Origin: Bacteroidota bacterium
Lineage (GTDB): Bacteria; Bacteroidota; Bacteroidia; Flavobacteriales_C; GCA-002722245
DNA: 54,111 bases
NCBI GenBank assembly: GCA_026390935.1
Contig: JAPLEZ010000134.1
Coordinates: 1-54,111 of the forward strand
Direction: 5' to 3'
Within the stretch, counting starts at the first letter, position 1. Each line of letters starts with the position of its first letter. The notes under the pieces are model-generated. The model worked only from the letters and a program-made list of their open reading frames with translations. It did not search any database and was not told the origin of the DNA. Both the position numbers and the translations under genes were made by a program. Shown here piece after piece: positions 24,057 to 29,024 of this stretch.

Positions 24057-24108
24057 TTCGTTTTTTCTCAAAACATTTTACAAACCATATTTACGCTTGG
24101 TTTTTCGG

Positions 24109-24251
24109 GAGTGGATTTCCCTCTCGGAGGAGAGGGGCGCGAAAGCTTTTTGTGGGGAGGAGGGAGATGGATTAATTATTTCTGTTTAATCCATCTCCCT
24201 GCCACCGCACATTTCCATCACACCCCTCTCCTCCGAGAGGGAAGCACAGCA
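24109..24251. repeat. Palindromic element B (gene-less copy of the DUF559 element)
   Basis: The left hairpin CCCTCTCGGAGGAGAGGG (24119-24136) and right hairpin CCCTCTCCTCCGAGAGGG (24224-24241) are exact reverse complements. Inward lie stalks ending in a perfect 14-bp stem, GGGAGATGGATTAA (24162-24175) and its complement (24186-24199), with only 10 bases in the loop. Hairpins and the inner GGGAGATGGA are identical to those of the element at 26537-27073, which holds a DUF559 gene where B has the loop. It sits between convergent purQ and anmK and can act as a two-way transcription stop. Confidence 0.85.
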
Positions 24252-24271
24252 CGAGAAAAGCATTCAGAAAT

Positions 24272-26500: not shown

Positions 26501-26536
26501 AAATCATATTACATTTTTCAAGTATGAACTTCCGGG

Positions 26537-27073
26537 CATGGGCTTCCCTCTCGGAGGAGAGGGGTGTGTTAGCCTTGCGGGGAGGAGGGAGATGGACCAA
26601 CACCCAATTCTATTTCCCTTTTCTCAATTTCACAAATAATAGTCTTCTCCACATTCATCAAATCATGCATCACTTCACTATCATGAAATCGTAAAGTTTT
26701 ATATCCTAATTTCAAAAGCTCTTCATCTCTTTTCAAATCTTCTTCGTATTTAAAATTGTGAGAATAGCCATCCACTTCAATTATTAATTTAAGCTTTCTA
26801 CAGAGAAAATCCGCGATGTATTTTTCTATTGGTCTTTGTCGTAAAAAGGCATAGCCCGTTTGACTATTTTTTAAAACTTCCGACCATAATCTGATTTCTG
26901 ATAAAGTAGAATCGTGGCGCAAGGATCTGGCAAAACCTTTTAGATTTTTGTTGTAATAACTGAGGGACATGGTGTTTAATTAGGTGAGGTGAAAATAAAA
27001 ATTTCTTTTTATTCCATCTCCCTGCCACCACACAAATCCTACGCACCCCTCTCCTCCGAGAGGGAAACCCATG
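26537..27073. mobile_element. Palindromic element A carrying a DUF559 gene
   Basis: Terminal inverted repeats begin CATGGG at both ends and include an identical hairpin, CCCTCTCGGAGGAGAGGG on the left (26546-26563) and its complement on the right (about 27048-27065). Inward, each arm has a variable stalk and then the shared GGGAGATGGA. The first 30 or so bases of the arms differ at only two places. Between the arms is one gene (26569-26970) whose last codons lie inside the left arm. Element B has the same arms without a gene. No target duplication is obvious at the ends. No transposase is present, so how it moves is unknown. Confidence 0.7.
26569..26970 (-). CDS. DUF559 domain protein, Vsr/PD-(D/E)XK-like endonuclease
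   Basis: This 133-residue protein belongs to DUF559, a family placed with the very-short-patch-repair and restriction-like endonucleases. The fold signature is visible: RHDSTLSEIRLWSEVL (Glu about 25), FLRQRPIEKYIADFLCRKLKLIIEVDGYSH (about 47-76, with Asp in ADF and Glu/Asp in EVDG as likely metal ligands), then KRDEELLKLGYKTLRFHDSEV. The tail GVGPSPSSPQG is low-complexity and is encoded by the stalk of the surrounding palindrome, so the gene and the repeat evolved together. Activity has not been shown here; it could be the element's nuclease, a repair enzyme, or a passenger. It faces the acyl-CoA dehydrogenase. Confidence 0.82.
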   Translation of the reverse strand: MSLSYYNKNLKGFARSLRHDSTLSEIRLWSEVLKNSQTGYAFLRQRPIEKYIADFLCRKLKLIIEVDGYSHNFKYEEDLKRDEELLKLGYKTLRFHDSEVMHDLMNVEKTIICEIEKREIELGVGPSPSSPQG

Positions 27074-27104
27074 TCTGAAAGCACATTATCAAAAAAACAG
27101 GATG

Positions 27105-29024
27105 TTATTTCTTCTCCTCTCCCTTATCCTTCTTCCCTGCATCCATCATCTCCATCAATTTCAACCCAAGCAATCCATTCATAGGATTGGCCTCTCCGCC
27201 ATTTCCATTAATCATCACATCAGGAATTACTTTAATATGTCCTCTACCAATTTCCTCTGTGATTTTGTATTTGGTAAAGTTGTCGCCACCCATTGCTTTA
27301 ACCTGCAATTCGTAAGCAGAAGCAGTGGATTTACCAATAGCAAGAATTTTCTCCGCTTCCGCATTACCGGTAACAGAAATACGTTCAGCTTCAGCATTGG
27401 CAATTAATTTTGTGGCTTCGGAATCCGCAGAAGCTTTCATACGTGTAGCTTCTGCTGCAGCTTGCGCACGCATTTTTGTGGCTTCGGCTTCGGCGTTCAC
27501 TTGTAGTTTCACGCTGGCTCCGTCTCCTTCCGCTTTCTTAACAGTAGCGTTGGCGGTGCGTTCAGCAATTTCCACCGATTGTTGTGCTTTCACAATTTCC
27601 TTTTGCATGTCGGCAATGGCAGTTTCTTTCTCTACACCCTGACGTTTTTCTTGTGCTTTTTTCTGCGTTTCAAAAGTCAACTCTTCCTCTTGCGCAATTT
27701 TTCTATCCGTTAAAGTTTTCATTAATGACGCTGGAGGAACGATATCACCAATCAAAGTATCCACCGCATTCACGTTGTATTCTTCCAATACTTTTCTGAT
27801 ATGATCTTTCGCCGATTGTTGTCTTTCTTTACGAGTTCCCAAGAAAGAAATAACATCGCTGTCCTGTGCCGAGTTACGGAAGTAGTTACCGATAGTAGGT
27901 TCCAAAACCTGCGACACCAAATTGTTCATGTTACCAAAACGCGCGATAACTTTTGGCGCATCGGTAGAAGGAATATGAATGATTTGCGCCACATCCAAAT
28001 TGAAAGGGAAACCATCTTTGGAACGCACAGTGATGGTAGATAAATTTTTATCGAGATTATGCGATTCACTGCGTGCATTTGCCCAGTTCAAAACAAGATT
28101 GGTAGTAGGCACCAACTCCACTTTCATGATGTATTTATTCAAAGGATATTTTCCCGGACCGTAAGGTTCGTTCCAAACACCTTTGAATCCTTTTTCAAAA
28201 ATATTTCCATGCTTGAATTCATCACCGCTTGTATCTTTTCCGTCGGAACCGATATAAGAAATCACAACACCAACGTGTCCGATAGGAATTTCAGTCATTG
28301 GAGTTTCTTCAATTTGTACCGCCCATGGATTGATGTTGTACGAACCCGCCAAAATGATTTGCGGCTGCAATCCACGATTCCCTCCACTTTTCAAAAACAA
28401 ATCGAAATCCTGATAATTATTATGACCATCCACTTGTTTACCTGCAATTTGTCCGTTCTCAATTGGCGCACCATCCAGCGTGGTAACAATACCTACCATG
28501 CTCTCGTGAATTTGCACCATTTCCACTACACTCACTGCAAACAAATGCGTGTTGATTCTATAGGAACCCGCGGTGATATAAGCTGTTTGTCGACCTTTTT
28601 GTCCGCCATTTTTCAAAAACTTCTCAGCGTCTTGAAAATTATCACAATCCACTTTTCTACCTAAGATTGCTCCGGTAGGAATTTCATTTCCATCGTTGGC
28701 CAAAACCAATCCGATTTTTCCTTGGGGAATAATAATAAAACCTTGCAATAACACTTCATATTGCCACACCCATTTCCAGAAATACAATCCTGGCGCTAAA
28801 GTCTTAGCCTGAAAACCAGCTTCGCCGTTGGTGGCAATAATTTTACCGTCGGGCATTTCTCTATCGGCACCCAAAAGCACAAACTTTTTAGTAACCAATC
28901 CGATTTTATCTTCAGGAATAATCACCATTCCAAATAAAACACGAAGGATGAATTTGTAAAAAATAATCATCAATAAAAGAAGCACTACCCACCAGTAGGT
29001 AGCCAATAATTCAGGGAGATTCAT
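27105..29024 (-). CDS. SPFH domain (flotillin/prohibitin-like) membrane protein
   Basis: This is a predicted membrane scaffold. An N-terminal anchor (about 8-34, YWWVVLLLLMIIFYKFILRVLFG) is followed by a long region (about 35-290) with related modules: GRKVDCDNFQDAEKFLKNGG and then ITAGSYRINTHLFAV, repeated as GKQVDGHNNYQDFDLFLKSG and then ILAGSYNINPWAVQ. The SPFH domain proper is about 300-465 (LVLNWANARSESHNLDKNLSTITVRSKDG). An Ala/Glu-rich coiled coil at about 465-600 has AEAEATKMRAQAAAEATRMK. The tail is Lys/Glu-rich. The 639 residues exceed typical flotillins (about 430-500) because of the modules. The promoter side is a 223-bp gap to 29248 in which I see nothing specific. Confidence 0.88.
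   Translation of the reverse strand: MNLPELLATYWWVVLLLLMIIFYKFILRVLFGMVIIPEDKIGLVTKKFVLLGADREMPDGKIIATNGEAGFQAKTLAPGLYFWKWVWQYEVLLQGFIIIPQGKIGLVLANDGNEIPTGAILGRKVDCDNFQDAEKFLKNGGQKGRQTAYITAGSYRINTHLFAVSVVEMVQIHESMVGIVTTLDGAPIENGQIAGKQVDGHNNYQDFDLFLKSGGNRGLQPQIILAGSYNINPWAVQIEETPMTEIPIGHVGVVISYIGSDGKDTSGDEFKHGNIFEKGFKGVWNEPYGPGKYPLNKYIMKVELVPTTNLVLNWANARSESHNLDKNLSTITVRSKDGFPFNLDVAQIIHIPSTDAPKVIARFGNMNNLVSQVLEPTIGNYFRNSAQDSDVISFLGTRKERQQSAKDHIRKVLEEYNVNAVDTLIGDIVPPASLMKTLTDRKIAQEEELTFETQKKAQEKRQGVEKETAIADMQKEIVKAQQSVEIAERTANATVKKAEGDGASVKLQVNAEAEATKMRAQAAAEATRMKASADSEATKLIANAEAERISVTGNAEAEKILAIGKSTASAYELQVKAMGGDNFTKYKITEEIGRGHIKVIPDVMINGNGGEANPMNGLLGLKLMEMMDAGKKDKGEEKK

Follow-up and report, generated by a model that had tools for sequence, protein, structure and literature searches.

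The window analysed here, a stretch of 54,111 nucleotides from a Bacteroidota bacterium, carried a gene for a small putative nuclease of the DUF559 family lodged between the inverted, hairpin-bearing arms of a repeated palindromic element. The analysis established the multi-copy nature of the arms, their specific association with the nuclease, in-frame insertions into host genes with both filled and empty alleles, the conservation of catalytic-type residues, and the fold as predicted. These data are probably, though not securely, explained by a family similar to REP/RAYT, in which a nuclease of the EDxHD/Vsr fold is associated with homing-like spread and is tolerated within genes as a translated domain. 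Cutting and mobility are inferred, as are the choice of target and the mobilization of gene-less copies in trans, and the role of the nuclease as the mover of the repeats is unproven.

The whole gene-bearing element extended over approximately 26524-27086 (no strand assigned), slightly wider than the 26537-27073 noted earlier, as defined by its outer inverted ends (ATGAACTTCCGGGCATGGGCTT and AAACCCATGTCTGAAAGCACAT) and by their conservation in 24 gene-less copies. It comprised the left-arm hairpin CCCTCTCGGAGGAGAGGG (26546-26563, plus strand), the left (L-type) inner arm ending in GGAGGAGGGAGATGGA (26564-26596, plus strand), the DUF559 gene encoding 133 amino acids (26569-26970, minus strand), the right (R-type) inner arm ending in GGCAGGGAGATGGA in the minus-strand reading (27013-27046, minus strand) and the right-arm hairpin CCCTCTCCTCCGAGAGGG (27047-27064, plus strand). 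The hairpin was 18 bp long (CCCTCTC-GGAG-GAGAGGG) and was matched four times in the window, against 0.45 expected. An earlier note on this DNA had described near-identical arms, each with its own 18-bp hairpin: both hairpins were found, and near-identity applied to them but not to the whole arms, which formed an inverted repeat of 72 nt at 75% (84% identity between right and left over 61 nt) and belonged to distinct L and R types. This copy was intergenic, with genes for an acyl-CoA dehydrogenase and a flotillin-like protein as neighbors.

Copy counts in the 3.76-Mb genome were taken from searches: the hairpin pattern occurred 63 times (0 for the reversed-pattern control), and a 67-nt probe taken from the arm in the window matched 70 places. 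The hairpins were mainly organized in inverted pairs spaced by about 100 bp. Twenty-four gene-less pairs were read, intergenic for the most part, and showed a core of 115-128 bp and two kinds of arm, L and R; their outer ends resembled one another and read approximately ATGGTTTTTCGGG.ATGGG.TT. In the window copy, the DUF559 gene was enclosed by L and R arms of these same types, and gene-less copies were far commoner than gene-bearing ones; the parallel with REP elements and their RAYT transposases, drawn earlier from the window alone, was borne out in this respect.

One gene-less copy was located in the window itself (24094-24265, no strand assigned; hairpins at 24119-24136 and 24224-24241), about 2.3 kb from the gene-bearing one, with a DNA fold z of -10.2 with respect to shuffled sequences. 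It was not found there in the sister species G002 and G004, and gene-less sites also varied between sister species. At site B of the window, G004 shared the neighbor gene on one side, but the intervening sequence and the downstream gene were different; the orthology of the gene-bearing copies of the window and G004 is undecided. The gene downstream of the acyl-CoA dehydrogenase was flotillin-like in the window and ABC-transporter-like in G002 and G004 (26524-29024 compared with L189 and L185), and this differing gene order places a rearrangement border at or near the element. Where the window genome (G000) has its element, G002 had unrelated palindromes, e.g. CAGATTTCACAGATC..GATCTGTGAAATCTG; this was seen at the counterparts of window 24103-24248, of the L016 site and of the acyl-CoA dehydrogenase end (L364, L368 and L185); intergenic sites seem to be occupied by differing palindromic families.

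The window protein matched PF04480 (DUF559) with 102 bits (cut-off 20.6; E 1.8e-29). Its conserved residues were D54, E65, D67, H71, D78 and R81, and the D, E-x-D, H, D and R were kept in 99-100% of 69 DUF559 domains, embedded ones included. The predicted model (mean pLDDT 89, pTM 0.81) was similar to the putative endonuclease NGO0050 (3hrl; Z 15.7), to the catalytic domain of the homing endonuclease I-Bth0305I (3r3p_A; Z 13.7, 1.9 A over 94 residues) and to Vsr (1cw0; Z 9.8), in agreement with the Vsr/PD-(D/E)XK-type fold proposed before. Judged by this model, the protein would be a small nuclease with the fold of EDxHD homing endonucleases and Vsr, its cutting activity being inferred only. 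A DUF559 gene has already been placed in the EDxHD homing family (PMC9403480). The window protein shares with I-Bth0305I the nuclease fold and the conserved acidic/His residues, and both families recur at the same site, but DUF559 has no surrounding intron or intein, the host protein retains the insert as a domain, and the 133-amino acid protein lacks an extra DNA-binding module. Caulobacter VsrA, a DUF559 protein, has been proposed as a mismatch-repair nuclease, and causes DNA damage in cells lacking a methyltransferase (PMC12907096). The window gene resembles Vsr and VsrA in fold and family respectively, but there was no cytosine methyltransferase beside it, and it is borne on a repeated palindromic element. 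Its identity as a defense gene was rejected, DpdF being the sole match (E 0.033).

Each of the four DUF559 genes in this genome lay between inverted hairpin arms, the arms of the other three being unlike those of the window in sequence. The same arrangement was found in four of five relatives from the genus, and in the fifth a hairpin was present on either side of the gene, with differing sequences. In the relatives G001, G003 and G004, both nuclease and arms had diverged, and the arms were still built from a hairpin, a spacer and a G-rich motif. A branch in which DUF559 genes mostly lacked arms, the outcome that the earlier note had named as its refutation, was thus not observed. The note had also stated that the last codons (PSPSSPQG) are read from the arm itself and had argued from this for co-inheritance. 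The tail and stop were indeed located in the left arm, and the fusion was repeated in the sister species G004, but in four other relatives the DUF559 gene stopped before the arm. Being present in two of the six genes examined, the fusion is not general and was dropped as the chief evidence; co-inheritance is supported by the many gene-less copies, by the one gene-bearing copy with L and R arms like theirs, and by the association of arms and gene, which extended across the phylum and beyond.

In the phylum, the inverted flanks of 37 of 50 DUF559 loci exceeded the 99th percentile of the controls, 236 windows drawn from the same DUF559 loci and from S23 loci; across many phyla, the same was true for 32 of 47 loci with respect to 563 control windows. 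Significant arms were lacking in roughly one quarter to one third of the DUF559 loci. The search for the arm in related genomes, suggested with the original observation, was also positive: among 40 genomes, at least three CCCTCTC..GAGAGGG hairpins were present in 17 of the 26 with DUF559 and in none of the 14 without (Fisher p 3.8e-5, not corrected for the shared ancestry of the genomes). The rank correlation between hairpins and DUF559 was maintained after controlling for genome size (partial 0.57). In G034, DUF559 was flanked by arms whose type was also that of the roughly 40 dispersed repeats in that genome, mostly singletons.

The nuclease might also be a passenger, that is, cargo trapped by arms which another enzyme mobilizes in trans, and kept for a host function, for instance mismatch repair or defense. 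This is unlikely, though not negligible. The large excess of gene-less over gene-bearing copies and the proposed role of VsrA in mismatch repair (PMC12907096) are compatible with it, as is the fact that S23/IVP genes, which were equally common, also had inverted flanks. However, the S23 flanks were of another sequence type and had no hairpins, indicating that the type of arm follows the cargo. Moreover, arm abundance tracked the presence of DUF559, arms and nuclease diverged jointly, no convincing defense-family match was obtained for the window protein, and a role in host repair leaves the in-frame insertions into LeuRS and MetH described below unexplained. The S23 flanks of the relatives (L221-L228) consisted of short units resembling TTTAGG, GTTTCAGG or AGTTTAAAG; with their S23 genes, they form another type of small gene-bearing element, distinct from that of DUF559. 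The 23S rRNA intervening sequence/S23 resembles the DUF559 elements in having a small gene between inverted flanks and in occurring several times per genome, in the same bacteria, but differs in arm type, and no in-frame case within a long ORF was found.

In-frame placement in housekeeping genes was beyond what the earlier note could see. Many DUF559 matches were located in frames of 700-1500 amino acids, inside host proteins and with both palindrome arms translated (e.g. ...SPSPGERG...[DUF559]...VLPFGEDLGG...); 13 of 69 matches read as internal insertions in frames longer than 700 amino acids. The hosts were LeuRS (at two sites), MetH, RecG, RecJ, HsdR, HrpA, ValRS and MnmE, and the 56 long frames included LeuRS (12, two sites), MetH (9, eight of them at one site), HsdR (6), RecG (5) and methylase-type proteins (4), among others. 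LeuRS, MetH, RecG, HrpA, ValRS, MnmE and a Mur ligase were confirmed as hosts by HMM; the remainder were identified from sequence. In the pan-bacterial set, 31 of 80 matches lay in frames longer than 400 amino acids (Proteobacteria, Chloroflexi, Spirochaetes and others), although embedded copies had been used to seed this set, so that their share in it is inflated. As a control, none of about 150 matches to S23 genes, which are of similar size, fell in a frame of at least 500 amino acids in the same 40 genomes. No splicing domain of the intron or intein type was detected in the embedding proteins by Pfam/NCBIfam, and the host frame was open through the insert. The tree grouped the MetH, HsdR and RecG copies of different families according to where they were inserted, and the two LeuRS sites had been entered by several DUF559 lineages. 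In an HsdR of Brocadiaceae (L295), DUF559 was placed as in the HsdR proteins of Bacteroidota (L079, L136, L138 and L146), between AAYHQYYAVN and GVIWHTQG.

Filled and empty alleles were compared for LeuRS and MetH. LeuRS was filled in G001 and empty at the same loop in G003; in the region preceding the insert the two proteins were 92% identical, and the matches listed included no further LeuRS from G001. MetH was present in most of 150 species of one genus of the same class, of which about 16 were filled at one inter-domain linker and most were empty. All 15 filled alleles examined had a length that was a multiple of three, and C-rich and G-rich arms of the AGCCCCCC/GGGGGGCT type marked the borders of the inserts. 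Filled alleles lacked about eight linker codons, so the insertion was not perfectly clean. In G360, the flanks of the filled MetH showed about 90% DNA identity to empty species and only 82% to the nearest filled one, and the nuclease grouped, with weak support, with nucleases of distant hosts. This pattern points to horizontal gain, though loss is not excluded. Three filled/empty changes were placed on the tree for the MetH site, their direction not being fixed, and loss rather than gain could lie behind part of the pattern. No target-site duplication was seen in the filled/empty comparisons, in which the intergenic flanks were diverged. Dating by synonymous divergence of element with respect to flank was discarded: synonymous sites were near saturation and the relative age was not decisive.

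The embedded nuclease was under purifying selection (dN/dS about 0.1-0.5), and this, together with the tendency of same-site copies to cluster on the tree, would also be expected of a fixed, vertically inherited accessory domain rather than a mobile insert. Such domestication is nevertheless improbable: the MetH site was empty in most congeners, the empty LeuRS of G003 was nearly the same protein as the filled one of G001 in its aligned N-terminal part, the host proteins are unrelated in function, and the inserts are bounded by palindrome arms. The notion that the hairpins are RNA-level or terminator elements, near DUF559 through base composition or chance, can draw on the intergenic position of most gene-less copies read and on their strong fold, but it was largely refuted by the reversed-pattern control and by the control windows that were exceeded, and terminators are excluded where the hairpins are translated within genes, leaving it barely tenable. 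For the same reason, and in the absence of any Rfam family at cut-off, a known RNA or terminator was ruled out as the identity of the hairpins.

Under the preferred reading, a REP/RAYT-like family served by a DUF559 nuclease, an arm consists of the short hairpin and a conserved G-rich stretch; two inverted arms make the gene-less unit of about 170 bp, and DUF559 between L and R the unit of about 560 bp. The nuclease may cut or nick DNA at an empty target, or at the extruded hairpin of an element, and repair of the break would copy the element into the cut site in a homing-like manner. Gene-less copies might be mobilized in trans, in the way proposed for REPs and their RAYTs. Insertions into genes would survive only when in frame and in a tolerant loop or linker, and would then be read through: an element open from end to end, with a length multiple of three, could thus become an extra domain of the host protein without splicing. 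Many gene-bearing elements of the wider family were in fact open from end to end. Against this reading stand the lack of demonstrated cutting or mobility, the target-site duplication that was not found, the quarter to a third of loci without significant arms, and the proposed mismatch-repair function of VsrA (PMC12907096). Its broadest form is tentative and falls a little short of what we would call probable: autonomous elements across bacteria, made of hairpin arms and an EDxHD/DUF559 nuclease, which copy themselves in a homing-like way, mobilize REP-like repeats in trans and reside unspliced in essential genes.

Among the closest known systems, REP/REPIN with RAYT (TnpA-REP) has in common with these elements short hairpin-forming repeats, which occur singly or as inverted pairs in tens of copies, and a gene-bearing unit with the enzyme gene between two inverted repeats. 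It differs in its enzyme, the RAYT being an HUH Y1 (IS200/IS605-like) tyrosine transposase and the enzyme here a nuclease of the PD-(D/E)XK/EDxHD fold. In addition, the GTAG tag of REPs was not seen in the DUF559-linked repeats, and the gene-bearing units of the wider DUF559 family are often within coding genes. Rickettsia palindromic elements (RPEs) are known in-frame palindromes of about 150 bp in unrelated protein-coding genes (review PMC10969869). The wider DUF559 family, though not the intergenic window copy, shares this in-frame insertion into unrelated genes; however, no enzyme gene has been described for RPEs, whereas the DUF559 elements carry a conserved nuclease and span phyla. CGTC-tagged repeats without a dedicated enzyme have also been described (PMC3733652).

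REP-like palindromes are common in bacteria and many families have no known mobilizing enzyme, for which a repeat-tied nuclease is a candidate; if the proposal is true, it would provide such an enzyme, possibly also for RPE-like elements. The recurrence of a gene paired with hairpin repeats across bacteria, often in frame within housekeeping genes, suggests that a class of selfish DNA has been overlooked. LeuRS and MetH show that conserved proteins can hold a selfish nuclease as an unspliced extra domain. This is relevant to protein evolution and annotation and to the function of the large, mostly unstudied DUF559 family, and the natural compact fusions offer a direct test bed for cutting and homing. 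In the open-access literature searched, no report of a DUF559-bearing palindromic element was found, and none of the 14 papers naming DUF559 linked it with tRNA synthetases; the two of these that contain the word palindromic were, going by their titles and abstracts, unrelated to such repeats. Subscription papers and preprints were outside this scope, and the absence of a report is no proof of novelty.

A plasmid or phage vehicle was considered and rejected, hits being few in both plasmid (44 of 72,556) and phage records (3 of 50,697). In Azospirillum, the element was present in every close strain found, hence the genus was uninformative for a within-species comparison of filled and empty sites. 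Its megaplasmids (L384-L387) carried DUF559 near prfA together with REP-like CCCTCCCC..GGGGAGGG repeats, and the query region matched 19-39 places per record. Finally, several LeuRS genes (L193, L195, L201 and L210) showed a further in-frame length difference of about 150-240 bp at a third place, near query residue 775-830.
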